From IMG/VR virus record IMGVR_UViG_3300031622_000011, positions 1 through 30,152 of that record: a stretch of DNA of 30,152 nucleotides; one strand, 5' to 3'. This document shows, one piece after another, positions 7,406-27,700 of the stretch (position 1 is its first letter; the number at the start of each line of letters is the position of its first letter). Position numbers and translations under genes: made by a program. Source of the DNA: a virus. The notes below the pieces were generated by a model. That model was not told the DNA's origin. It was given only the letters and a program-made list of their open reading frames with translations, and made no database searches.

Positions 7406-7413
7406 TATTTATA
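7406..7413 (-). promoter_or_regulatory. T4-type late promoter box TATAAATA upstream of the 78-codon gene
   Basis: Exact TATAAATA on the minus strand, overlapping the TAA stop of the 588-codon gene (7409-7411). It lies 93 bases before the ATG of the 78-codon gene and would drive the 78-604-464 unit. It is one of four exact boxes in gene junctions, all followed by G, giving TATAAATAG. Confidence 0.75.
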
Positions 7414-9175
7414 TATATGTAAACGTAACAGTAAGATCAGATCCAGCGGTGCCACTTCCGACTTGAGTTATATCTACTGTTAAATAATCATCTTCTGCTA
7501 ATGTTATACTCGGCGAACTATTTATAATCTTTGTTCCACCATCAGCAATTACTAAAGTCGCTCCGGATGAGCCATTCTTCTTTACTGTTATATTTATAGC
7601 TGCTCCTACCGGAGCTGTATTTACTCTTGCTACAATTTTACTTATAGTCACTGCTTTTGGAGCGTACCATCTTTTAGTTCCAGTTGTAACTGTCAAAGCT
7701 CCATTTTGAACTAGATTTGTAAAACCTGAAGATACTGTTGCTACTTGCCAGCCCGTACCGGTTTTAAAAATATGTAACGTACTAGTATTTTCTGCAAAAG
7801 CTAAGTCGCCATTAACATTACCAATCGCTGGAAGATACGTAGCGTCCGCATAAATGCTTACCGAAGCGACTAATGATGTTCCATCCGGAGCAACTAATGT
7901 TGCAGTACCAGCAACTTCTTTAATTTTATTCTTAAATGAAGGTGTATTTTCTACATACGTTGCCATATCTTGAGGAACAAATTTACTATTTGTTGCATCA
8001 TATACAATACACATTTGATTAACTAAAGAAGGAATAGGTCTTAATTCAATCGCGTTAGAATGATTTTCTTGATCATGCTGGCCGTAAATTACATAGTTGC
8101 CATTTGTATTGGTTTCTACTGCTAAATCTTTTATAACAATTGTTCCACGCATTGAAGAGTGAATTCCGCATTGATAGTATAAAGTATCAGGTGCGCCGGC
8201 AGGAACAGTAATTACTAATGCTCCGGTTTGATTTCTTGAACCAGTTACACCAGTCGTATATTCTCCGACATAAGATCCAGAAACATAATTTGTTCCATTA
8301 TCTGTTGTCAAGTAAAAAGGATGGCCAGTTGCAGTCAAATTGAATGTATAGGTACCGCCTCTACGCAGCGGGCCTATTTCTGGATTATCTCCTGATCGTG
8401 TTCCGCTAAATGTATATACACCAGAACCAGAAGCTACAGTGTATGCCACTGTTGGAGCAGTCAAAGTTGGTGGTGTAATACTTGATGGCACTGTAAACGC
8501 TAATCTTTGTACTGAAGTAGACGAACCGCCATTAATACTTGCATGTGTATGATTCACTGTCGTAGTTGTTGGCCAACTTACTAAATTTTGATCACCGGCG
8601 CCTTCAATCCATTTTAATTTAAAATCATGACGTTGTGTCATACTTCCATATTGAGTATTTGCAAAGTTATTAATTTGATATGTACCTTGCATATAAAGAG
8701 GAACATTTGTTTGCACTGCATTTGTAATAGAAGTTCTTGCATAAGGAAGAGAACTTGTTAACCATGTCCATATCCAAGCCGTGCCATGTCCAGCTGTTGG
8801 ATCAGCTACTTGAATTTCTAATACTTCTGGCGCAATAGTTAAATCGACATTGTCAAGTTGTTCAATTTGCTCAACTGCAGGTTTTGATGCCTGTTCAACA
8901 CCACCAACCGTAGATTTAGTTTCAAGTTTACCAGACGCAGATGCTTCTAATTTAATAGTATTCGCACCAGTACCAATACTAATTGCGGGTAAAGAGATTG
9001 ATCCTCCGGTACCTGCTGAAATAGATCCACTATCTCCTAAAAATATTGTACTACCACTCAAATGAAGTGATTTCCATTTCTTTGTCGATGACCCTAAATC
9101 ATACGCAGAATCAGCATCTGGAATCCAAGATCCATGCGGCGTTAAATTAGCTAATGATCTACCTTTAGTCGACAT
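7409..9175 (-). CDS. Tail-fibre-type protein with an embedded cupredoxin-like (blue copper) domain
   Basis: The 588-residue protein begins with a fibre motif, ADSAYDLGSSTKKWKSLHLS (21-40) followed by GSTIFLG, also found in the giant fibre of this window. Residues about 252-350 resemble a cupredoxin domain: a start YTFSGTRSGDNPEI, then THPFYL-like GHPFYL with H285, a valine-rich strand VITVPAGAPDTLYYQC, and C336, H339 and M342 in CGIHSSM. These four residues are the type-1 copper ligand set, with the Cys-x2-His-x2-Met spacing of amicyanin. The C-terminal 490-588 is a separate beta-sandwich (NITVKKNGSSGATLVI...DDYLTVDITQVGSG) common in phage fibres. A ribosome-binding AGGAT precedes the ATG, and a late-promoter box lies 30 bases upstream. 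Adhesin or appendage function is inferred; copper binding is not shown by sequence alone. Confidence 0.82.
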   Translation of the reverse strand: MSTKGRSLANLTPHGSWIPDADSAYDLGSSTKKWKSLHLSGSTIFLGDSGSISAGTGGSISLPAISIGTGANTIKLEASASGKLETKSTVGGVEQASKPAVEQIEQLDNVDLTIAPEVLEIQVADPTAGHGTAWIWTWLTSSLPYARTSITNAVQTNVPLYMQGTYQINNFANTQYGSMTQRHDFKLKWIEGAGDQNLVSWPTTTTVNHTHASINGGSSTSVQRLAFTVPSSITPPTLTAPTVAYTVASGSGVYTFSGTRSGDNPEIGPLRRGGTYTFNLTATGHPFYLTTDNGTNYVSGSYVGEYTTGVTGSRNQTGALVITVPAGAPDTLYYQCGIHSSMRGTIVIKDLAVETNTNGNYVIYGQHDQENHSNAIELRPIPSLVNQMCIVYDATNSKFVPQDMATYVENTPSFKNKIKEVAGTATLVAPDGTSLVASVSIYADATYLPAIGNVNGDLAFAENTSTLHIFKTGTGWQVATVSSGFTNLVQNGALTVTTGTKRWYAPKAVTISKIVARVNTAPVGAAINITVKKNGSSGATLVIADGGTKIINSSPSITLAEDDYLTVDITQVGSGTAGSDLTVTFTYI

Positions 9176-9212: not shown

Positions 9213-11820
9213 CACTTTTAATGCTATAATTATTTTTAACAGCAAAGCTTTGAACCGTACTTGTTGAAGTCGAAGATAAATCAGATCTTCCAGTAGTAAT
9301 TAATTCAATACCATCGCCATTCCAATCCACACCAAATGCTGCGGCTTGAGATGGAGATGCAAGAGTTAAAATAGCAGAATCTAACACACTACTATTAAGT
9401 CTATTATGATTGATATCTATTTCACGTATTTTATTTTCACTAGAAAAATTTAAAGTGTTATTTCTTAAATTCAGTCCAGACATCCCGAGGACTCCTAAAG
9501 AGTCCTCTTCCCATATACTATCAAGAGACATACTAGAAACACCAGCATTAGCATTAAAACTATACTTGTGTATTTCAAATCCAGAATTTCTTGCTATGTA
9601 AAATTTAGATCGATCACTGTCGATTGCTAAACCACTTACGTCAATAATGTATCCATCTGCTCCAACATTTAATGTTTTAATTTTATTTGTGTGTTCTCTT
9701 ACTGCAGTTGAGGGATCATTTGTTGTTGTCATCTTCCATTGATTAATTGTTCCACTATCGTTATGAACTAATATTTTGTCTTCGACAATATTAACCCCAA
9801 TAATAGAATTTGAAGAATCCATACTTACATTAGCATCAGATTGTATAAGACTAGATACTAAATTAAATTGATTCAATTGAACCGTATGTAAATACTTATC
9901 TCCGGCTACTATCATTTGACTTGAGTCTATAATATTAATAGTATTGAATGTTCCAAGATCTTGTCCAATTTTAGATGTAGAAGAACCTAAAGAATTTAAT
10001 TCTATTTTTAAATCCCATCCTCCATCACTAATTTCTTTACTTAAAGATGTGATAGGCTGAGTTAATTTTGATATACTGAATAAATCAGAATCAATTGTTA
10101 TGTTTAAATTATATTGATAAATTTGATTTAATTTTTTATTTAATACATAAAATTTATTTCCATCTGGATTGAATCTTATAGACTCAGGTCCATGCGGTCT
10201 TCTAGTTGCAAATCCATCTGATTGCGATATATCTACTCCAAAATCAGGACTTGGATCTTCTATGGATAGATTATTCATTTTAGTGCCTATTTCATGTGTT
10301 GCAGAATCAAATGCAACTGCAGTACTAATATCCCAAGGCGACGTTAGAGTATATTGTCTAAATTTTCCGTCAAACGCTGCTATAGCTTCACCAGTATACA
10401 TTTTAGTTCCATCATAATTAAAGCACATAGATTGAGGCAAACCATAATGTTCAAATGTAGCTATGTATGTGTAGGGATCGGCGTAGTTGAAAATGCTTTT
10501 TATACTTGCACCTGCTGTAGTTATCCCTAGTGCTGCAGTGGTCAACAGCGCTTCATCTTCAGCAAAAGTGTGTGTGTAAAATCCTGTTTCAAAAGATTTT
10601 GTTATAGCATTTGAATCAACTGATAGTGTGTGTATCTGCCCAGGATCATATAAAGTATATCTTTTGATTGTACCAGCATCAACAACTTTAGGCATGCCTT
10701 TACTACCTTCGAAAGTTTTGTTCCCACCATCACCTTCAAGATTTATAACCGGTGTTTCTAATGTGTAATAATATTTTCCATCAGGACTTACATAAGTATC
10801 TTCAATATTTTTTAATTCAGTTGTATTAGTTTTAAAATTGTCTTTTCTAATAGCAGTGTTTATATCCCATGGTGTAAGTAACCAATATTCTGCTATTTGA
10901 TTTAATGTTTTATCTAAAATAAATAATCTATAACCAGTGTTATTAAATTTAAATGCCGATGGATTTTCAGCATTCCAGCTATCATTCTTTAAATTTAATA
11001 TTTTTTCCTGTGAGTGATCAATTTCTCTTAACGAATATGGATTAGTCATGGGATAAGATAATAGCCTATTTTGATTATCATCCAATAAAAAGATAATTGA
11101 CCCAGCCGAACTTCCTGTGGAAATTTGCATATCAACGTATTGATCAGTAGTTCTTAGCGCATCTTTAATTTCTAAAAATTGTACATCTGGAACTGTAAAT
11201 GTAGAAAGCTCTATTGCTTTATCATGATTAAAATTAGAAATAGTTGTTTGTTCCCAATTATAAAAATATTTTATTTCAAGATTATCTATAAAATTATTTC
11301 TTAATCTTAATTCATCTAATGAATCAGCAGTAAATCCGGCATTGATGGATGGTAAAGAATTAATTTCTTTAAATTTAGGAGCTGAATCTACTCCAGACAC
11401 GTTAATTACACCATTAAATATAATTTCATTTGATAATGAAGTATCTCCAAAATTCTTTCTAGGAATTAAATCAAAACTTGGAGAAGTACCACTAACATCT
11501 ACTATAATATCATCCGGACTAGCTACAACAGTTTTTATTGCCCCTTCAACAGTATGTGTCCAAGTAATAGTATTTCCATCGCTATCAACACCAGTTAAAT
11601 TTATTCCAGTTGACATTGATCTTTTTAAAGTATCAAAAGTTGAATCATAACCAAAATTTAAACCATTAGGCCCTATACTGCCACTTATATTTTGTGGATT
11701 AATTATTCCTACTGAAAACCAACTAGTAGATAATTTACTATATTGATAAATTTGTTTTTCTTTTTGAGAATAAACTATTCCACCATTTTCTTTGACTTTT
11801 GCTATATCAACAATACTCAT
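9208..11820 (-). CDS. Beta-propeller-type phage appendage protein
   Basis: The 870-residue product opens with a linker, IYQYSKLSTSWFSVGIINPQ (24-43), then an Ig/cadherin-like module at about 65-125 (VDSDGNTITWTHTVEG). The body contains degenerate propeller blades of the form 'F-x-x-DG-x-K-x-Y ... QYxLxxPWDIxTA': about 287-323 (FKFNNTGYRLFIL then TPWDINTA), 461-503 (FNYDGTKMYTG then TSPWDISTA), 546-572 (IRFNPDGNKFYVLNKKLNQI) and 727-755. These are the YVTN/NHL-like repeats frequent in marine phage tail proteins and usually suggest protein or glycan binding. The ATG overlaps the stop of the 1735-codon gene (ATGA), with GGAG upstream, so the two are likely translationally coupled and may act in one appendage. 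The exact position in the virion is unknown. Confidence 0.82.
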   Translation of the reverse strand: MSIVDIAKVKENGGIVYSQKEKQIYQYSKLSTSWFSVGIINPQNISGSIGPNGLNFGYDSTFDTLKRSMSTGINLTGVDSDGNTITWTHTVEGAIKTVVASPDDIIVDVSGTSPSFDLIPRKNFGDTSLSNEIIFNGVINVSGVDSAPKFKEINSLPSINAGFTADSLDELRLRNNFIDNLEIKYFYNWEQTTISNFNHDKAIELSTFTVPDVQFLEIKDALRTTDQYVDMQISTGSSAGSIIFLLDDNQNRLLSYPMTNPYSLREIDHSQEKILNLKNDSWNAENPSAFKFNNTGYRLFILDKTLNQIAEYWLLTPWDINTAIRKDNFKTNTTELKNIEDTYVSPDGKYYYTLETPVINLEGDGGNKTFEGSKGMPKVVDAGTIKRYTLYDPGQIHTLSVDSNAITKSFETGFYTHTFAEDEALLTTAALGITTAGASIKSIFNYADPYTYIATFEHYGLPQSMCFNYDGTKMYTGEAIAAFDGKFRQYTLTSPWDISTAVAFDSATHEIGTKMNNLSIEDPSPDFGVDISQSDGFATRRPHGPESIRFNPDGNKFYVLNKKLNQIYQYNLNITIDSDLFSISKLTQPITSLSKEISDGGWDLKIELNSLGSSTSKIGQDLGTFNTINIIDSSQMIVAGDKYLHTVQLNQFNLVSSLIQSDANVSMDSSNSIIGVNIVEDKILVHNDSGTINQWKMTTTNDPSTAVREHTNKIKTLNVGADGYIIDVSGLAIDSDRSKFYIARNSGFEIHKYSFNANAGVSSMSLDSIWEEDSLGVLGMSGLNLRNNTLNFSSENKIREIDINHNRLNSSVLDSAILTLASPSQAAAFGVDWNGDGIELITTGRSDLSSTSTSTVQSFAVKNNYSIKSV

Positions 11821-14800
11821 AATAGATCTCCAAAACTATCTGCAATACCAAAGAATGGACCGCCTTCTTCATAAGAGTCAAAATTACTAATTCCTTCTGC
11901 ACCAAATCCACCTTGAACTATTTGATCCATAGACATAAGTCTTAATACTGATTGGTTTGAAGTGCTCACTATATTAAACTCATTTCTATTATATGCAGTA
12001 TTGATTATTACTTCCTCACCGGGCATTTTCAACCCATCAGCATTTACATATAATACTGGCATTTCATTTGTAATTTTATTCTTTCCAGTAATAGTTGAAA
12101 ACGCGTTCGTAGGTCTAGAAGCAAAAGAGTCAGTCGAGCTAAAATAATCATTAAAATAGAAATTAGTATAATCGTCTGTACTATCTCGAATAGTTTCAAC
12201 TATTGGTTCAAAAAGCTGTGAAGTTTCTATTTGCCAATCAATAGGTTGCAAATTATCATCTTTGTTATATATGCTAAGCTTTAATTGTAAACCTGGTATG
12301 TATCCAATTTCTCCAGATTCTTTTAGCTCTTCCCAACTTGGATAATCGCTATCAGATCTTCTAATATGTAAGAAACCGTATGAGTCGTCATCTATGTCTA
12401 AACCCAAACCATCTAATGCATTATCAGTTTTATTTACTACACTATCCGCATTAAAATCTATATTATTTGTATTAATAACTCCAACCTTAAACCATTCTAT
12501 AGATGCTGCTCCAACCTGATATGGACTCCATTCAAAACCTCTTACTATGTCACCTGTAATAGTATCTTTTTTTATCTTACTAATAGGATTAAAAATACTT
12601 ACACCCGAATTTGGTATAACACCAGGTATAGTTGCAATAGTATTAAAAGCAAATGTATTACCTACTGCTGTGATTTGATCAGTAATAGCTAAATTAAAAC
12701 TATCACCAGTAAATTGTATTCCGGTTTGTATTCTAAAATCTTTTATATTACCTTGATATGTTCTAAATAAATTAGGTTCACTTCCAGCTATTTTAGGTAT
12801 ATCATTGAATGGTCTACCTTTAACTTGATTTCCAGCTCCAATAAATAATTTAGAATTTTTTATTGGAAGGTGAGTGGTCATAAATGGTCCATATGGAGCT
12901 CGGCCTCCAGCACTGTCAATCTGCACCCCGTCTTTCCATAATCTTATTTTATCTTGCTCAACCACTATTGCATTATGAACCCATTTCACGCTTCTTCCAT
13001 ATGCTAATGAAGTAGAATCTTGAGCATGAATTGTCAGTAATTCACGTTGGTCTACAGTATAATTGTAGTTTACATTCTTAGCTACAACCATCTGACCTAA
13101 CGTATCAAAAGAAAGTAATGGTCCACCTTTAAGTTCCCCACCGCCTTTTGCTTGGATTCCACCCATTATTTGTAATGAAGAATCTTTTGAAGCGAGACCA
13201 GATAAATCATTATTCCAGTTATTAATATGAAAAGAAGCATAACTATCATCTGGAAGTCCAATTCTTGAGCCACTATTAGGAGATCTAATATATGAATAAA
13301 CTACATATGAGTCAAGTTGTTGATGAAAATTAATTCCTGAGTTCACTACATTCCAGCCACCAGCTTTACCGCTAGAAATTCTATTATCAGCAATATCATT
13401 AAATAAATGAAAATCTTTCATATGACCTTTAAATGGTGAAGTTACAAAATTTGAATCATTAATTGAACTAAAATCGTTAGTATTCCACCAAGGTTCTAGC
13501 TCAGTATGGTCAAATTTCGGCTGATCTATACCATCAAGAATTTGATTAGAAATACCGCTTCCCTTAGAAAATATTGGATCTATAACTTTAGCGTTCGCAT
13601 ATGGTATGCCACTATAATAATCTTCTTCATCTTTTAAATTCTTATAGTTTGAAAACACACATTTTTCAAACACATTTCGGGTACCTGGCTTAAACTTATT
13701 ATTTATTAAAGCCCACGACCAACTGAAAAGATCAGCACCAGAAAAATCAAAATGTACTTTATATGCTTTTGCTCCAGTTGAAGCATAACATAATGCTGTT
13801 TCTCCAACGGTTTCATTTTTCTTTGTCTGTATAAATTTCTTAAATGTTAAAAATGCTAATTCTGTATTTTCGTCTTGATTCGGACCAAATATAGGAGAAA
13901 TTCCATCATAATTATTTCCACTTGCTACATAATTAATATGTACAGCTGCAATATCATTAGTATTACCGCATATCATAATATTTTTCATACCAAAAGGTGT
14001 AGATAAACTATCTGTACCTTTAGGTAAAGCTGTTTTTGGTACGCTAGTGTTAACACCAAAAGCACCGCCTGGAGAAGCGGTAATGCTATAATTACCTGGT
14101 TCTAACAATAAACAATTACCATCAGATAAACCTGCTATAACAGAAGTTATATCTCCTGCCGTGGAATGACTTACTACACTTCCACCAGTTCTTAAAATAT
14201 ATGACCTAGCTTTATTAATTCCGTGATCAGTTCCTTTATGTGTTGCTACTCTTCCTGCCCAACTAGCTCTAGCATTTTTATATTCATCAGTTTCACCTGT
14301 TAAATTAGTAACTGCCCCTGTGCTAGTAGCTGGATTATATGCTTCTTTATAATATATTAAGTGATCAGCGAGTGGCCAAGAAAATTTCCCTGTTCCCCAT
14401 ACGCTATTTTTTAAGTAAAAATCTCTTACATTTGTATTCGGCGCAACACTATGATCTATAAATGGGTTAATGTTATTAGGATTCGTATTACCGGTAGTGG
14501 AATTAAATATTCCATCATTAACAAAAGCTGGAGTACTGGTAGCTGTTCTTGCTGCGTTAATCAATTTAGCTGGATCATAAACCCAATCTTTTGCTAAAAA
14601 AGCAACCTTTGCTTCATATTTTTCTGCTTCAGTTGCAAGAAAATTTCTAAAACCATTTGGAGCAGGGTTCCCGCCTGAGGCGTCGTATCCGCCGTTATAG
14701 ACTACTGGGGGATCAAACGTTACTGCAGGATCTGGGTGATAGCTAGTGCCAATGTTACTTTGAATTGCAGATGTCTGATCACCAATTGGATTTACATTAT

Positions 14801-17024
14801 AGACAGGGCCCCACCATGTATTTCTAAATTGAAATCCTAATTCCATAATAGTATCAGTTCCTGGACTTAGATTAAAATCTTTACTTCCTATATAAGCGCC
14901 ATCTTTAAAGGTATGTAACTGTCCGGTTTGTTCATCAATTATGAAACTACTTAACGATTTGTCTAGAGATTTAGTAACTACATCAGTATAAGGAAATAAA
15001 TATGAATTTGGAGAAGATGCATTATCTAATATTTCAGCGCCGTACTTTCCAGCGGCCCCTGGATTCATTACGTTGACTGTATCTGCTGCATCATGCGGAG
15101 TATCTTGATGTACTATATTAGTAGAAGCAATAAATGGTATAATACGCATTATATCTGAAATGCCGATGACGATTTGATTAGGATCTCCTGCACTATTTTT
15201 ATTATGTATTTCAAAATAAATTATTCTACCAGTTGAATTTGGGCTAGATTGTGTTCCACAATTATTTAATAATACTTTATCATTAAATCCACCGTCACTT
15301 TTTAAAATAGAATACCCAAAATTAGTTTTTTCAAATAACCTTAAAAATAAATTACCAACATTATCTGTTCTAAAAGGATCTCTTCCTGGAAGACCATAGT
15401 GTATCTCTAATACCGCATCAGACCCAGAGGTATATGTCCTTTGATCTCCCTGATGCTTAACTCCCATATTTGCTTGATTTTTCCAAACTTTAAATTCACT
15501 TATTCCAGTATTATTATTATTAGCCCATCTTAATAGTCCTGAAGAACTATTAGGCCGATGGCTAGATATTCTTATATCGTCTCTGCCATTTGGATAATAT
15601 TTTTTTGAACCTTGTTGACTTGGCAAATTGCCAATTTTTTTAGTCATTAAAGTTATTTCTGCTGGAAATAAATTAACGGAGAATCTTACTTCATGCCATC
15701 TATTTCCTCTTTTTCTTTTAGAGGCTCCAGACGGAACTGGATATTCGGTATAATCAGAATCTATTTCAATATTATTATTACCTGAAGTAGTTGGTAAAGG
15801 CAACTCACATGATAAAGCTCCATTTCCAGCAGAAAGATTTAATTTAGGTGCACCACCAGAATTAATTACTTTTAGCTCTAAAGCTTCATCATCACCACCC
15901 GCTTTAAATAAAAGTTTATCATTAATAGGTGAACTATCAATCCAAAAATACGCAGCAAAAGTTGCATCGCTATAAACATCAAAATTGTTAGTAATAATAT
16001 TGCGTTTACCAGTAAGATAAGAACTATTCATAACATCATTTGTGGCATATAGTCTATCACTGTCAGGAACTAAATACCCGCCACTGAGATAATCATATTC
16101 TTTAACTGGATCGCTAACAGAAAGATAACCCATTTTTGGAGCTGTCATATCTATATCAGTGGTAATTTGTTCCCATTTTAAATTATTTCCAATTCTATAT
16201 TCATATGGTGCACTATCGTGATAAGACCAGTCTAAACCTCTAATACGAATACCATCTGTATGTACCATTGCAATATTATCTAAGCCGTCGTCTAGACTTT
16301 GATAGGAAAAATTAGAAGTATTATAAGTATGTTTATTATCGCCTATTGTCGTATTCGATATTAAATTATCATTTTTTCTATACCAAGCGCCCATTGTAGT
16401 ATGAGTTGATTTAGATGAACTTAGTGCATCAGATGAAAATATAGCATACATCCCAGAATCTTTTCCATCCGGAGATGCTCTTTCATGAACAGTGTCTGTT
16501 ATAGGAGAAATTGAAGGAGTTGTATATCCACCTGAAGGATGTGAGGTGGTGGCATGTAAACTTTTTCCAAATAAATATGAGCTTCCTCCCCAAGAATCAT
16601 TGTAAGGATTAACACCTCTATCAATTTGTACTTCACCGCCTGCTATTTTAATTGAATGACTTCTATCTGGAATTAAATTTATTGGTTCACCAATACTTGA
16701 ATCATTTTCTACAATATCAAAAATAACCGATGCGTGATCTCGTGTATCTAAGGTAGTAAATTGCCAAAAATCTATACTAAAATCATCAGTAATTTGATCG
16801 TAACCAGTAATTGGAACTTTAAATGCGCTATCAATTCTTAAGTGCGCGCCGATTGGATTAGATAAATTATGACCAGAAAAAAACATGCTCCTACTAGGGA
16901 GGATGTTTAAATTTAATTTACTTCTAATAGATCCGTCTTCTTTAACAAAAGCTATATTATCGATATCAGCCGGATCTGATGGAAGCGATAAATCGCTTAT
17001 TAAATTTTTAATATAATTTACCAA
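11817..17024 (-). CDS. Large multidomain tail-fibre/tailspike-like protein with LamG-like domains and a possible beta-helix
   Basis: At 1735 residues this is the second-largest protein here. LamG-like pieces are visible at about 45-135 (ITDDFSIDFWQFTTLD), 340-515 (FAAYFWIDSSPINDKLLFK then NRWHEVRFSVN then ISEFKVWKN) and 1230-1440 (SVKWVHNAIVVEQDKIRLWKDG then LFIGAGN then GNIKDFRIQTG). Between them, about 950-1190, SVIAGLSDGNCLLLEPGNYS begins a stretch resembling the start of pectate-lyase-like right-handed beta-helices of tailspikes. No catalytic residues can be assigned. I keep the TTG start: AAGGAA lies eight bases upstream, the late-promoter box just before it, and the next in-frame Met is residue 47. 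A WFKVGVINTNNI motif near residue 1510 echoes the N-terminal linker of the following 870-residue protein. A receptor-binding role is inferred. Confidence 0.82.
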   Translation of the reverse strand: MVNYIKNLISDLSLPSDPADIDNIAFVKEDGSIRSKLNLNILPSRSMFFSGHNLSNPIGAHLRIDSAFKVPITGYDQITDDFSIDFWQFTTLDTRDHASVIFDIVENDSSIGEPINLIPDRSHSIKIAGGEVQIDRGVNPYNDSWGGSSYLFGKSLHATTSHPSGGYTTPSISPITDTVHERASPDGKDSGMYAIFSSDALSSSKSTHTTMGAWYRKNDNLISNTTIGDNKHTYNTSNFSYQSLDDGLDNIAMVHTDGIRIRGLDWSYHDSAPYEYRIGNNLKWEQITTDIDMTAPKMGYLSVSDPVKEYDYLSGGYLVPDSDRLYATNDVMNSSYLTGKRNIITNNFDVYSDATFAAYFWIDSSPINDKLLFKAGGDDEALELKVINSGGAPKLNLSAGNGALSCELPLPTTSGNNNIEIDSDYTEYPVPSGASKRKRGNRWHEVRFSVNLFPAEITLMTKKIGNLPSQQGSKKYYPNGRDDIRISSHRPNSSSGLLRWANNNNTGISEFKVWKNQANMGVKHQGDQRTYTSGSDAVLEIHYGLPGRDPFRTDNVGNLFLRLFEKTNFGYSILKSDGGFNDKVLLNNCGTQSSPNSTGRIIYFEIHNKNSAGDPNQIVIGISDIMRIIPFIASTNIVHQDTPHDAADTVNVMNPGAAGKYGAEILDNASSPNSYLFPYTDVVTKSLDKSLSSFIIDEQTGQLHTFKDGAYIGSKDFNLSPGTDTIMELGFQFRNTWWGPVYNVNPIGDQTSAIQSNIGTSYHPDPAVTFDPPVVYNGGYDASGGNPAPNGFRNFLATEAEKYEAKVAFLAKDWVYDPAKLINAARTATSTPAFVNDGIFNSTTGNTNPNNINPFIDHSVAPNTNVRDFYLKNSVWGTGKFSWPLADHLIYYKEAYNPATSTGAVTNLTGETDEYKNARASWAGRVATHKGTDHGINKARSYILRTGGSVVSHSTAGDITSVIAGLSDGNCLLLEPGNYSITASPGGAFGVNTSVPKTALPKGTDSLSTPFGMKNIMICGNTNDIAAVHINYVASGNNYDGISPIFGPNQDENTELAFLTFKKFIQTKKNETVGETALCYASTGAKAYKVHFDFSGADLFSWSWALINNKFKPGTRNVFEKCVFSNYKNLKDEEDYYSGIPYANAKVIDPIFSKGSGISNQILDGIDQPKFDHTELEPWWNTNDFSSINDSNFVTSPFKGHMKDFHLFNDIADNRISSGKAGGWNVVNSGINFHQQLDSYVVYSYIRSPNSGSRIGLPDDSYASFHINNWNNDLSGLASKDSSLQIMGGIQAKGGGELKGGPLLSFDTLGQMVVAKNVNYNYTVDQRELLTIHAQDSTSLAYGRSVKWVHNAIVVEQDKIRLWKDGVQIDSAGGRAPYGPFMTTHLPIKNSKLFIGAGNQVKGRPFNDIPKIAGSEPNLFRTYQGNIKDFRIQTGIQFTGDSFNLAITDQITAVGNTFAFNTIATIPGVIPNSGVSIFNPISKIKKDTITGDIVRGFEWSPYQVGAASIEWFKVGVINTNNIDFNADSVVNKTDNALDGLGLDIDDDSYGFLHIRRSDSDYPSWEELKESGEIGYIPGLQLKLSIYNKDDNLQPIDWQIETSQLFEPIVETIRDSTDDYTNFYFNDYFSSTDSFASRPTNAFSTITGKNKITNEMPVLYVNADGLKMPGEEVIINTAYNRNEFNIVSTSNQSVLRLMSMDQIVQGGFGAEGISNFDSYEEGGPFFGIADSFGDLL

Positions 17025-18720: not shown

Positions 18721-21700
18721 TTATTTCTCTGTGAATAACCAACCATTAGCTACGTTATAATATACCAATCCAAATGCTGCTCTATCAACATCAACTATTA
18801 AATCTGAATCTCCGCCTTCAATTTTATGACCATTTCTTCCAATTGTAATATTATTTGTAGCAGCTTGGCCTGTTCCATCAATAATTCTAACTTCATCTCC
18901 AAGCGTTGCAGCCACTGGAAGATTAACTGTTTTAACAGTGCTTGTATTAACAATTAATCTTTGATTAGTAAGTAATGTTACTGGTGTGGAAGTAACTTCT
19001 GTCCAAGTACCAAGAGCAGTAGTTCTTGCAGAGATATAATCGCTATCAATTAATGAAATTACTGTGGCCGAATCTGTCCCGGCAGATACCCTTGCAGAGA
19101 TATAATCGCTATCAATTAATGAAATTACTGTGGCTGAATCTATCCCGGCAGATACCCTTGCCGCAATATATGCACTATCAACTAATCCAGCAAGCGCTAC
19201 AGCATCTACTGTAACATTTGAAGCTTTATTTTCAATTGCAGTAATTGTGATTTCATCAGATGTGGAAGCACCTGTTGTTAGCGTAATAGTATTGGTTATT
19301 GGATTAGATGTAAAGTCATCTGAATCCATAAGTTTAATACCATTTTGGAATACATTAAAGTTACTCGAATCAATTCCTAATGTCTTTGAATTAGCATCTG
19401 TACCAGTAAATGATGTTTGACCACTTGTAGCAACAAACTTAAAGGTATTCATAAACGTATCGCCAACAACTATATGCGATTGCGTAACAGTTTGTGATAA
19501 AGTATTAATTACGAGATCATCGCCTGAATCAGCAGCAAATCCATTTAAAGTTAATGAATTTGCAGTAGCATTAACTGTATAATCTATGCCAGATACTAAT
19601 CGAATACCGTTATTAAATACTTGGTAATTAGCGGTATCAATTGCAAGAGCTTCACCATTAGCATCATTTCCAGAGAATACTGTTTGACCAGAATCTGCTA
19701 CATAATAATAATTAGCAAAGCTGACAGCATTTGTAAATGTTCCACTTGATGCTCTTGCTTGAACATAATCACTATCAATCATTCCAGTTACAGCAGCTGA
19801 GTCTGTGCCAGCTGGTAATACACCTGGAGCCCAATAACTATTTCCATTATCCCAAATTAATATTTGACCTTCAGTTGGTGTAGCTGTATGAACATCAGCT
19901 AATAAAGTAATTGAAGATGTATTATCTAATTTTGTTGCAAGAGCTGCAGTTGTAGTAGCAGCATAATTCGAATCATCGTTAATAGCCGCGGCTAATTCAT
20001 TTAAGGTATTTAATGTTGTAGGAGCAACATCTACCAGAGCAGCTATAGCAGAATCGACTATACTAACAACAGCGCTACTACTAAGACCTCCTCCGCCTCC
20101 TCCGCCAACTATAGCATTAAGACTAGTAATAACTAAGTCATCACCTAAAGCTGCTCCTGTAGTAAGGACTAGCGTAGTTGTTCCAGTTATGGTATAATCA
20201 ATATCTTTTAATAAGTGGAAACCATTTAGATATGCTTGCACTCCCGAAGAATTTATAGCAAGTGTATTACCAGCAACATCATTTCCAGTAAATGATGTTT
20301 GAGTAGCAGTTGCAGTAAATCTAAAGTTAGAATATGCAGATTGCCCTGCCCGCGCGATAATATAATCACTATCAATTAAAGCTAGTATTGTCGCACTATC
20401 GGCAGAACCACTACCTGAAGTTTGTCTTGCTTGAATATAATCGCTATCAATTAAAGAAATAGTGAGTGAACTATCAAGGCCACTACCAGCACCGCCTGAA
20501 GCAGCACCTGGAATCCATTTACTTGATGCGGTATTATATACTAATGCTTGACCATTTGTTGGAGATGGGGCATTAACATCTGTAAGAGCACCGAGCGTTG
20601 TTATTCCTCTTGCTTGAACATAATCTGAATCAACCATACCACTTACTGCTGAACTATCAATCCCCTGCGGAACAACTCTTGATTGAACATAATCTGAATC
20701 GACTAATGTTCTTATACCAACAGAATCATATTTTTCTCCAATAAGAGCTGTAATAGTAGTTGAGAAATTAGCATCATTTCCAAGTGCAGTTGCAAACTCA
20801 TTCAGAGTATCCATAGCAGCTGGAGCGCCATCAATTAAATTATTAATAGCAGTGGTAATATCAGCACCAGAAGCAAGATCCTGCCAAGCGCCAGCATGAG
20901 CAAAATATGCTTTGCCAGTTGCATGTACATGAGCAAACATACCATGATAAGATGAAGCACTTGGAAGATCACTCAGCGCCGCATAAACATTAGAATATAG
21001 GATCTTATTCGCACCCATATCCAGATCTTTACCGGTAATATTGCTATCAACCCGTAAATCTGTATAATATAGATTTGAATCTTCAGTAAGATTCTTGGTA
21101 GTTGCTCCACTTAGATCAATTGGAAGAGCCACACCTAAAGAATCAGTAGTAGTAAATACGTTATTAATGTCTTTAATTCTTATTCCACCAAGATGGATAG
21201 TTGAACCACTTAAATATAAATCTTTCCATGCAGCGGTTGAACTACCAAGATCAAATAATTTATCTGCACCTGGAAGAATAGTGTTAAATGTTACGTTAGT
21301 ATTTTCTAACGGAATGCCTTGCCAATTTCCACTTTTTGCTATTCTTGCAGTATTATCACCTGTAGTAACTGCAACCATACCAGTATGTGTAGAGGCATTA
21401 GGTAATGCACCTGTATTAGTTGCACTTGATCTAAATGTAATATTATGACTACCAAAATCAATAGGCCGTGTACCAATTCCAGTTACACGATTAATGTAAT
21501 CGCTGTCAATAATATTAATAATGTAATCACTATCAGCTACAAATTTAATATAATCACTATCAGCTACTGATTTGATATAGTCACTATCAGCTACAAATTT
21601 AATATAATCACTATCAACAATTGATTTAATATAACCTGAATCTGCTACCGATTTGATATAGTCACTATCGGCAATTGATCTAATATAGTCACTATCGGCA

Positions 21701-24700
21701 ATTGATCTAATATAGTCACTATCAGCAATTGATTTAATATAGTCTGAATCTACTGCTGATCTGATATAATCTGAATCTGCTATTGATTTAATGTAAACAT
21801 TATTAGCAATAAATTTAATATAATCGCTATCAGCTACTGATTTAATATAGTCGCTATCAGCAATTGATCTAATATAATCGCTATCTGCTATTGATGCGAT
21901 ATAGTCACTATCAGCAATTGATTTAATATATTTAGAATCAATAATAAATTTAAAATGATCTGAGTCGAGTTTACCATCAGCAATTAAATCTTCTTTTTGT
22001 ACTCTTCTGTTAATAAAGTCTGAATCAAGAATGCCGTCAATAATATCAACACCATTAATGAAATATTTCATACCTGCAGCGATATTAATACCGTCTTTTG
22101 CAACTTTGCCACCAGTAGGTATGCCTATATCAAGTGCAAAGTTGCCAGATGGAGCTGTGCGATCATAAAGTATTGGTGATCGAGTTGTTGTAGCGTTTTT
22201 ATCAACAATATAACCACCAAGGTCTTTTGATAAAATATTTGCTGTATCTAAGGTAACACCATTCAATATTATCTTAGAATTATCTCCGATATTCCCAATT
22301 TCTAAATTTCCGGCTTGGCCATTTCCAGGTACAACTTTTGTATTACCTTTAACTATTAAATGATAATTGTTATCAGCAATTTGGCCAATACCCATTTTAA
22401 AGCCAGGAAGATTGCCATTAAATACGCCGCTAAGTTCACGCTGCATGAATTTGCCGTCAGCTAATATTTTATTAATTAAACCGATTCCTTCATCGGAATT
22501 TAAATATGCGGTGTCGTCAATATTTGCCATGATATAATTTTGATCAATCGCCTGGTAATACTTTTGACCTTTTGCGAATCCATATTGCTCTTGTCTTTCA
22601 TATACGTAGTCAGAATCAAAATATTCTGTAGCAGAATCTGGGCCAATATAAAATTGAGCAACCTGGTGTGTAAGATAAACTTGATTGCCTTGATTTGAAT
22701 CAAGAATTTTATCACCTTGCCAATATAATGATTGAACATTTAAACTACCATTAACATCTAAATCATAACCAGGTGATGTAGTTTTAATCCCGACTCTTGG
22801 AGCAGTTGTATAAAGATAACCAGTATTTACATCATTGTAAAAATACATTGATGCTGGCATGGTTGCCCGATAGTGTGTAGGATCAATATGTGATTTGACC
22901 CATCCCGCATCAGCATTAAATCTTATCCAAGATTGATTAGCAACACTGTTTCTAATGTAATGATAAAGAGTTTGACCATGGTGATATGCATCGCCAGTCC
23001 AATTTATACTTCCGTCAATATCTACCATATAAGCTGTGTTAGGATTCGTTTTATTAATCCCTACTGATCCACCCATCAAAGCTATGACATTATTATCTGA
23101 AACAGTTGCCGATACAGAACTACTTGTATATGCACCAATTGCAACAGAATTTATTCCAGTTACTCCAACACCAGAACCTATCGCCACTGACCCATCAGCC
23201 GAAGCTTGCGCGTATGATCCTAGAGCCATACCACCATTGCTGACAACGTTTTCTTTACCAACCGCAAAGGCATTTTCGCCTACATTATTTTTATTACCAA
23301 ATGCATAAGCAAGATTAGATGTACCGCCGTCAACTGTGTTTTCGTAACCATAAGCATGACCTCCATTAACAATAGTATTTAGATCACCATAAGCCCAACC
23401 AAAATCAGTAATTATATTGTCTTTTCCGTAAGCATCACCAAATCCAGTAATGTTATTACGAGAGCCGTAAATATTCCCGCCTTTAGTTTGTAAGTTTTGC
23501 CCACCAAATATATAGTTACCTTGCCCTCCATTTGCGGCACTGGTTCTACCAGCAAGATTCACATTGTCTGAACCATATACTCTTGTTGCATACCAATTCT
23601 CATTAGAAGATCCATATATTTCTGAACCAAATACGATATTTTTATTAGTAATACCATAAACTTTAGCATTGTTGTTTATAGTTTCATTAGTACTACCATA
23701 AATTGTAGCAAAATTATATGTATCTTTATTTGCAACTCCAAACACTTCTGATCGAGAAATAGTAGTATTATCGGTACCAAAGACTTTGGACTCTCTACCA
23801 GTGGTATTGCTAACTCCAAATGTAACTGAGGTATTACCATTTCCAATATTAGTTCTACCAAAGATAGTGGAACTTCTGCCAGATGCTGTATTAGATACAC
23901 CGTAAGATATACTACCGGCACCAGTTGCTTCGGTATTTAAACCAATTGCAATCGAGTTATTACCGGATGATTTGCTTCCGATACCCATTGCAGCAGATGT
24001 GGTACCGCTTGAAACAACGCTTGCACCAATTGATACTGCACTTTTCCCAGCAGCTGAGCTATGGCCTATTGCTAAGCCATTAGCACCAGTAGTATTATTT
24101 TGACCTATTAAAACAGAGTTTTTACCGGGTGATGTAGTTCCAGAAACAGGATAATTATCTCTACCAATATTTAATCCTGCTTCTCCACCACTTAAATTAT
24201 ATCCAATTACTACGGCATTCTTACTTGTATTAACAAGTAAAGATCCAATAGCAGTATTATCTACGTAAGCAGTTTGAGTGCCATCATCGCCAGTAATATC
24301 TCTACCAATTACAACGCCGCGACCAGTTTCAAGTGTTTTACCAATTGCAACTCCGCCTTCATCTGTTTTAGATGTACCTTTTGCTCCTACGTTAGTGATA
24401 CCGATACCAAGAGATAGCGAATTTTGCTTATTGCTATTTGTAATATCTTTACCTACCGCAACACTAAATTGTCCAGGATTGGTAATTGTATGTCCTATTG
24501 AAACAACTCTGGTAGTATGTAACGGTTGTTTTGTATATCCATTAGAAGCATAATCAACATTACCAGCAGATACATTATAACCGATAGCTGTTGAATGATC
24601 AGTAGCTAAGGTATTTGCACCAATACCTTGTGAGAATATACCAATTTCTCCACTATCCCAAGTTGCCTTTTTACCATCGACATAACCAGCTCTAAAGGAT

Positions 24701-27700
24701 CCATAGCCAGGAATCCACATTAATCTTGCGCCAGAATCGATTTGTTCACCACCGCCTGTTCTTGGAACTATACCAGCTTTTGGATGATCAGCGCTATCAA
24801 TTAGGATTGAGCTCAGAAATAATACATTCCCAGAATCTACGGCAAATCTAGTTTGATCAAATGGATCGATCATATCTCTTTTACCGATAATCACTCCACC
24901 TTCTTCATCGTAGAATATTTGTTGATTCGGAGATGTGCCTATTCTATTCCAAGGATCGGTAATTCTTGATCCAATATAATCATCATTGACAATTCTTATA
25001 ATATTAGAATCAAAAGATCTTCCAACATAAGGATTAACTAAATTAAAACCTCTTGCTGAATCATAAGATCCTGGATAGTATGGACCAAAATAGAATTCAG
25101 CAGATTCGCCAGATGTCATGGTTTTTGCAGCAAGGTCGTTGTACACAGTTCCACCATGTGCCGCTACCCAAGCGTCATCGGCTCTGCGCTCTTTATAACC
25201 AAATAGCAATCCGCCATTTTGGATTTTACCAATACCACTGTCTAATGTAAATCCAGTTTTAAATATAGCGCTATCTTCAAATGTAAACTGTGTAGTAGCT
25301 TTTGCTGAACCGCTATCACCTTCGCTAGCAATATTTAAATTACCACTTAATAAAATTGGTGGATTGCGAAGATTTCTATCGGCAATAACGGAAAGAGGAC
25401 CTTTAATTGTAAGAGATGCATCATTCTTTCTGCTTCTTGTTTCAATTCTGATCTGATCACCGACTGACAATCTCGTATTATTTTCTGAATCATAGATGTG
25501 TATAAGAGAGTTAGTTACTTCTTCCCATTTCTCTCCACCAGATTCAAGTAAATCGCCATTAATATATACGTGTGTTAAGCCATTTTTAACATAGTTAAGA
25601 ATTTTACCTTTAGAAGGCGATCCAATCATAGTATTTGAACTATCTTGAAGTCTTAACGCGCTGAGTGTATTACCGCTTATACCGTGTGATACGGTATGTA
25701 AACCCCTATTAATAATGTCAATAGAATGAGTATGTGTCATCCCAGCCCGTGCAGCACCTAAAGCATCAACGCCTATACTGTCCCATCCAGGAATAGATTG
25801 CTCACGTATTTGAATAGTAGTACCATTTTGCCAAACCCAATCGCCGGTAGCTATTCCATTTCCAATAGCGTTAAACGTTCCTTTTGTTAGAGTAGTAGAA
25901 TCAAAACCACTACTTAATGGACTAGTAACAAGTTTAGGAGTAACTAATACTACACTCATAAAATCTGAGTCTAGGCCAGGTGTTCCACTGATAGCAAAAG
26001 ATGCTGCAGATTCACCATATGCCATACCAGCATCAGTATTGCTTAACATTATTGAAGAAAGCGCAGCTTGAGTATAAATTTGTGAATTAGGATGCGTGAT
26101 GAAATAGCTATCAGCCGCATTTACAGTAAAATCATATACAAATGTATCATCTAATGTTATCTTAGATCCTTCAATAACACTATGTCCACCAGCACTAAAT
26201 CCAGAATCAACTCTTACATCACCTTTAACGTATAGCTTAGATCCTGGAAGACTAATAGGAGCACTATCTGCACCAATTGCAACATTAGTACCTTTATTAA
26301 ATCCAAGTCCGCCAAAATAAAGAGTGTGGCCATCAGCGGATCTTCTCCAATGTGAACTATCATTAGCATGATTAAGAATATAGTTAGGACTAATAATAGT
26401 TTTCATATAGCCAGAATCAATGACAGAAGCAATGATTGCTGAGTCAATATTCATTCTATCTTTCACATAATCACTAGTAACAATTGTTGAGATATAGTCT
26501 TGAGTTGGCCAAGCAGCTGGGTTTCCAGCTTGATTAGTAGTAATAATAGGAGATTTATGATTAACTGCAGCTAGTTCAGAAACCGCGTCTTGTGCTGGTC
26601 TAGAAGCATAATCAACTGGAATATCTATTCTAACTTTACCATCTATATCAAGCTGGTATTGCCATCTTGCATTACCAATTGCATCGACTTCTTCATAACC
26701 CGCATCAGCATCTATATTATTTTTATTAATTACGACTGGATTTGTTCTAGGGCTTTGGTGATTAATAAGCTGATTGCCACCTTTTAATGCCCAGAAGTTA
26801 TCAATAGAAACTCTTGCTTGAACATATGCCGAATCAAGATGAGTTTCTAAAATTGGAATAAGTCCACCAGTTGGTCTTACAACAAAACTGTCAAATGACA
26901 TTCTTTCGCCAGTACCAGGATTATCACCAATTGTAAATGTACTGCCTGAAACAGATTGTCTAAAATGAACTGACCCTTCTACAGTAGCGCTATCACCGAC
27001 AGTTAATGCACCTAGAACATTTAAATTAGCACTTGAAGTAGTTTTTTGTTGAGGTATGACATGAATATAATTTGCTGAAGTAGTAACTGGAGTTCCAGTA
27101 TAATCTGCGCTTAAAACTGGAATTGTTAATACATCATCTGTAAATAATTCAAATTTATTTGCATGCCCAGCATCTAGTAATCCATCACCATTTGTATCAG
27201 GTCCAACAAAATATGTATTTCCATTTAGATCTGTAAATGTTCCGCCAGTAATACCTGATAATCTAACACCATCACCTACTATTAGTCCATGAGCTGCTGT
27301 TGTGGTAATTGTTAAATTTGTTCCAGTAGTATCAAGTGCCCATGCTGCTGAAGCGCCAGAAACAGGTTGTACAACTGTTACAACTTCATATGATCCAGCT
27401 GGGGTGGCACTTGGAACAACTAAGGTTTCGCTTGAAGTATCAAGTGCGGTAGTACATGTTCTATCAGTAAATAAATTAAAATTATCAGCGTCAACTTCTT
27501 GAACAAAATATACATTATCGGCAGCAGGCGTATAATTAAAACTACTAGTAGGTCCACCAGCTCCATCAGTAAGGTTACTAAATTTAACACCTAATCCAGT
27601 ACCCCCACCACCGGCTGATCCAAGTAAATGGCCGCCAGTACCAGTAGGTATGGCTACGCTTGCGGTTGCAGCTGAAGAAATAGTAAACGTTGACGTTTGT

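Follow-up and report, generated by a model that had tools for sequence, protein, structure and literature searches.

The window analysed here is a virus record of 30,152 bases, and the protein under study, of 588 residues, is encoded on its minus strand (Table 1). The order of genes on that strand is a 3799-aa tail fibre-like open reading frame (ORF), ORFs of 538, 1735 and 870 aa, the 588-aa protein, a 78-aa ORF, two further ORFs of 604 and 464 aa, the second of which contains a Laminin_G_3 domain, and homologues of the head-tail adaptor, the T4 neck protein and the gp15 tail sheath stabiliser. This gene order matches that of the host recognition cluster that adjoins the neck gene gp14 in pelagi- and cyanomyophages (PMC7029224). 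Gene position, a fibre-like N-terminal part and a C-terminal beta domain together suggest a tail-fibre role for the 588-aa protein. Elsewhere in the window, the 3799-aa ORF (18721-30120, minus strand) is of tail fibre type with weak YadA-head and beta-roll-like matches, and the 1735-aa ORF (11817-17024, minus strand, TTG start) is without Pfam or PHROG match.

Table 1. Positions in the window of the 588-aa protein, its regions and the putative copper ligands.
Feature	Position	Strand	Basis or remark
ORF of the 588-aa protein	7409-9175	minus	ATG start
Putative tail-fibre-type virion protein, 588 aa, with predicted cupredoxin domain	7409..9175	minus	Between the 3799-aa tail fibre ORF and the gp13/14/15-like neck genes
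N-terminal region, residues 1-100	8876..9175	minus	Varies among homologues; model confidence low at residues 1-35
Conserved beta-rich core, residues 105-235, ahead of the cupredoxin domain	8471..8863	minus	Invariant alignment columns and model
Predicted cupredoxin domain, residues 241-352 (~112 residues)	8120..8455	minus	AlphaFold2 and cupredoxin PDB matches
H285, putative first Cu ligand	8321..8323	minus	Profile alignment and homologue conservation
C336, putative thiolate ligand	8168..8170	minus	Profile alignment and homologue conservation
H339, putative second His ligand	8159..8161	minus	Profile alignment and homologue conservation
M342, putative axial ligand	8150..8152	minus	Profile alignment and homologue conservation
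Linker/neck region, residues 353-483	7727..8119	minus	Full-length model, partly low confidence
C-terminal beta domain, residues 484-588	7412..7726	minus	pLDDT about 70-93; probable C1q/BclA-like trimeric jelly roll

The full-length model of the protein, built as a monomer, is of modest confidence (pLDDT 73), and in many homologues the alignment starts only at about residue 104. Short local structural matches of this model to Cbln1, BclA, the C1q head and Ena3A probably belong to residues 484-588, and the protein may form a trimer. The original prediction had placed a blue-copper domain with a full ligand set at 8126-8422. This stretch corresponds exactly to residues 252-350, and the domain delineated by homology and fold is slightly longer. 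The four proposed ligands, H285, C336, H339 and M342, were found in the translation at the positions claimed. The protein contains only 2 Cys, 11 His and 6 Met residues, and CGIHSSM is its sole C-x2-H-x2-M motif. Such a motif arises in only 38 of 100,000 shuffles of the protein (expected 3.8e-4), which rules out a chance origin. The proposed likeness to amicyanin spacing stood in part: the seven-residue loop and a gap of 51 residues from first His to Cys are both present, but the gap is unlike that of amicyanin. This gap is ~39 residues in amicyanin, ~47 in plastocyanin and ~53 in rusticyanin, so that the phage domain is closer to either of the latter two.

Single-sequence searches with the window protein gave no match in Pfam, NCBIfam or the PDB sequences, and only profiles and structure resolved the identity of the domain. 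In particular, the window protein has no match to Pfam Copper-bind (PF00127, plastocyanin/azurin) above the gathering score and none to the amicyanin family TIGR02657. A single-sequence search of a genome collection returned ten matches, mainly to Flavobacterium. PF00127 does match 11 of 42 homologues at E values up to 1 (best 2.5e-7), and one homologue, L375, scores 21.2 against TIGR02657, for which the cut-off is 110.2. Membership of the window protein in a copper-protein family rests on profile and structure: in profile alignments, the four ligand columns coincide with the copper-binding residues of plastocyanin (1kdi), and the C-H-M segment aligns with its counterpart in a copper nitrite reductase (CuNIR; 9cck).

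AlphaFold2 modelling of residues 238-352 with 51 homologues gives an eight-stranded Greek-key beta sandwich with a mean pLDDT of 95.6 and a pTM of 0.88. Rusticyanin and copper nitrite reductase occupy the top Foldseek ranks for this model, and all of the PDB matches listed (50) are copper proteins of cupredoxin fold. With VIA-align 2, the model superimposes on domain 24-134 of 2dv6 with a Z score of 11.2 (r.m.s.d. value of 1.9 over 93 residues), and on rusticyanin with Z scores of about 10, up to 10.7. In the predicted fold, strand 4 begins directly after H285, strand 7 ends with C336, and H339 and M342 lie within the loop that connects strands 7 and 8; His, Cys, His and axial Met are thus predicted at the canonical positions of a type-1 site, rather than far apart as a mistaken assignment of the ligands would have it. 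The structure comparison that the original prediction had proposed accordingly came out in its favour. On this modelling, the domain almost certainly has the cupredoxin fold, and sequence and model together make it quite probable that it binds copper in a type-1 site. In a database of predicted viral structures (BFVD), beta-sandwich proteins of the Marseillevirus LCMAC and Pithovirus LCPAC giant viruses also match the fold of the domain.

The ligand residues are strongly conserved. Among close relatives, H, C and H are kept in all 69 distinct sequences and M in 68, the remaining one being cut by a contig end. Homologues aligned over more than 380 residues retain all four ligands in 93 of 94 distinct proteins, and the exception, L237, has lost all four. 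In this protein (an ORF from position 476, 1018 aa), which shares 54% identity with residues 111-587 of the window protein, the ligands are replaced by D, S, T and R; copper is therefore not indispensable. In a wider set of 383 distinct domains, 309 carry four ligands, 54 none and 20 an intermediate number, with no domain carrying exactly two. Homologues do not freely lose the ligands, in keeping with the original prediction. One of the domain scans used the C-x-x-H-x-x-M motif itself and was checked against scans that used only the sequence before the motif, each of which still held the first His in one pattern. These motif-independent scans recovered 263 domains, of which 195 keep four ligands, 51 none, 13 one, 4 three and, again, none two, which counters an explanation of the conservation as mere search bias. 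Alignments A1 and A2 were made from rows chosen for keeping the ligands, so that the invariance of the ligand columns in them carries no independent weight.

The loop from Cys to Met is seven residues long in all 313 domains compared, and the gap from the first His to Cys varies from 41 to 76 residues across the family. In 297 of 313 domains, Pro follows the first His. Known type-1 sites usually have Asn or Ser there, and the redox properties of the phage site could therefore be unusual. Two domain copies (L342 and L316) have Gln, the axial ligand of stellacyanin-type sites, at the position of the axial Met. Six large multi-domain proteins (L344, L346, L347, L349, L350 and L352) contain one domain of Y-C-Y-Y type (GYPF ... 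CSLYSGY), in which Cys is kept and both His and the Met are replaced by Tyr, alongside normal H-C-H-M copies.

Loss of the ligands is mostly all-or-none. Clustering at 60% identity yields 67 clusters, of which 60 are of this kind, as compared with 17.7 +/- 2.6 expected when ligands are shuffled independently, in a test that ignores ancestry. When the ligand columns are omitted from tree building, each ligand changes ~8 times on the resulting tree (Met 10 times), and C336 and H339 show joint change in ~5 of the ~6 pairs that are independent and supported (sign test, p of ~0.06); this tree-based co-loss is consistent with behaviour as a unit, although underpowered. As judged from these sequence comparisons, computation shows purifying selection acting on the H-C-H-M set, and the pattern says that the four residues behave as a selected unit and that the fold can apparently outlive their joint loss. 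Because some copies have lost the whole site together, the metal would not be needed for the fold in every copy.

Ligand-free copies, for example the second domain of the protein that follows gp9 and those of L237 and RN05-S, also speak for a simpler reading, in which the domain is a plain Ig-like beta-sandwich spacer or adhesin whose ligands bind Cu or Zn for stability only, or are kept by recent ancestry. Ancestry alone cannot explain why the ligands are kept at 36-50% identity while other columns drift, why their codons vary synonymously among homologues (CAT/CAC for H285 and H339, TGT/TGC for C336), or why half-sites are nearly absent, with zero domains carrying exactly two ligands. We regard this plain scaffold as rather unlikely, though as the strongest of the competing readings.

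By tblastn, 352 phage records contain the domain; nearly all come from phages of Synechococcus or Prochlorococcus, and most of these records carry the label of baseplate wedge tail fiber connector. The domain also occurs within tail fibre, subtilisin-like and LamG-containing proteins; 372 of its copies are internal and 106 C-terminal. The copy of phage Syn9 sits C-terminal to a T4_gp9_10_N domain, and the Prochlorococcus podovirus P-SCSP2 has the domain as well. The domain is thus a mobile virion module that is common in marine phages, carried on gp9/10-like baseplate connectors and in tail fibres. Its proposed location inside a tail-fibre protein is in keeping with the gene context, but the module is not peculiar to that protein, being widespread in marine phages and often found on gp9/10-like connectors. 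Among cellular organisms, relatives of the domain occur in Flavobacterium, in proteins that also have a CHRD domain and keep the ligands. Eight such records (L365-L372, from Flavobacterium and one Urechidicola MAG) all have a C-terminal cupredoxin domain with ligands, and both of the two proteins scanned have an N-terminal CHRD domain. Virion proteomics of phage S-SM1 reported 41 proteins (PMC3037559); for S-CREM2, whose virion proteome table is known, the cupredoxin domain was not found in the 75-107 kb region searched.

Retention of all four redox-tuning ligands, including the axial Met, together with the location of the cyanophage module on baseplate connector proteins, would suit a redox-sensing trigger, in which a Cu(II)/Cu(I) change or a thiol swap at the reducing periplasm or host surface aids rearrangement of the fibre or baseplate. 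However, type-1 sites are built for little change on redox, no partner or conducting path is visible, and the variable position of the domain among proteins is a better fit to a generic module; we consider such a trigger improbable. Still less probable is a copper lure, by which a metal-loaded fibre would be recognised by, or compete at, host metal-acquisition receptors, as a copper analogue of the Ferrojan Horse strategy that has been proposed for tail-borne iron. Nearly all annotated matches do come from phages of marine hosts, and a role for metal in tails has been put forward in the case of iron; a buried type-1 copper, however, is a poor release site, and there is no sign of a common receptor.

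Plastocyanin (petE) is a well-known auxiliary metabolic gene of cyanophages, and one homologue, from S-SCSM2R, is annotated PetE in GenBank (L375:2794-3300). This could suggest that the domain is an electron-transfer protein of PetE type made during infection. The PetE-labelled protein itself consists of a fibre-like N-terminal part of ~168 aa and a cupredoxin domain and is not an ordinary plastocyanin. The module forms part of large virion proteins, whereas true cyanophage petE is a gene of its own, 324-369 bp long (PMC3037559). Auxiliary metabolism of the PetE type was rejected on protein architecture and is extremely improbable; the same architecture disfavours soluble electron transport, in line with the preference of the original prediction. 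With at least one tail-type domain already labelled PetE, some of the plastocyanins annotated in viral metagenome sequences may really be structural modules.

Computation establishes the homology, the cupredoxin fold, the canonical H-C-H-M set and the selection that preserves it, and the recurrence of the module in both tail and baseplate proteins. The best overall explanation, which we hold to be reasonably probable, is a type-1 copper cupredoxin module within the trimeric tail fibre of a marine T4-like phage; its copper loading and function are what we infer. The protein would fold in the host cytoplasm without metal or with Cu(I), and the exposed virion would then pick up copper at the high affinity typical of type-1 sites. 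The metal would stiffen the ligand end of the sandwich and form a docking face for contact between fibre and host envelope. Since some copies retain the fold after loss of the whole site, the metal would be an addition that selection favours on a scaffold for adhesion, rather than an electron carrier. The most likely role is docking or adhesion, by a module that copper stabilises and that sits on a trimeric fibre for host recognition, and copper-dependent docking or stability is, tentatively, the reason for which the ligands are selected.

More broadly, the baseplates and fibres of marine tailed phages might bear functional type-1 copper centres whose metal is required for engaging the host or for keeping the particle stable, a proposal that we advance with similar caution. 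If it is true, this class of metalloprotein virion is undescribed in the literature searched, in which no description of cupredoxin domains in phage tails was found, with thin coverage of subscription journals. Should copper be bound, a large fraction of the T4-like phage particles in the sea would count as copper metalloproteins, their infectivity would be tied to trace-metal chemistry, and metal-in-tail ideas, so far argued mostly for iron, would gain a direct test.

Cupredoxins as such are familiar proteins, and PHROG 677 already brings the phage domains together without identifying what they are. The last ~115 positions of this family (baseplate wedge tail fiber protein connector, cyanophage gp9/gp10-like) are the shared domain: profile positions 297-411 of 412 match residues 234-351 of the window protein (1.5e-19). 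The cyanophage isolates S-SM1, S-ShM2, Syn9 and P-SSM2 have the same domain with the same ligands. The window protein and the PHROG 677 members have only the cupredoxin domain in common, which is internal in the former and C-terminal in the latter, and the T4_gp9_10_N domain that is present in Syn9 is absent from the window protein. The label of PHROG 677 therefore reaches the window protein through the shared cupredoxin domain alone. Of the 42 aligned phage sequences, 19 match the Pfam family PF25489 (At5g54830-like domain), which is named for a plant protein (best match 5.7e-7), with the window domain itself unmatched. The best structural matches of the phage domain, the cupredoxin domain of Hyphomicrobium denitrificans CuNIR (2dv6) and rusticyanin (1rcy), share only 21-25% identity with it and are redox enzymes or electron carriers, in contrast to the predicted part of a virion fibre described here. 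With amicyanin and plastocyanin it has the H-C-H-M set in common, with a C-x2-H-x2-M loop of amicyanin length, but it differs from them in its His-to-Cys spacing of 51 and in the Pro after the first His, and the window protein has no match above either curated cut-off.
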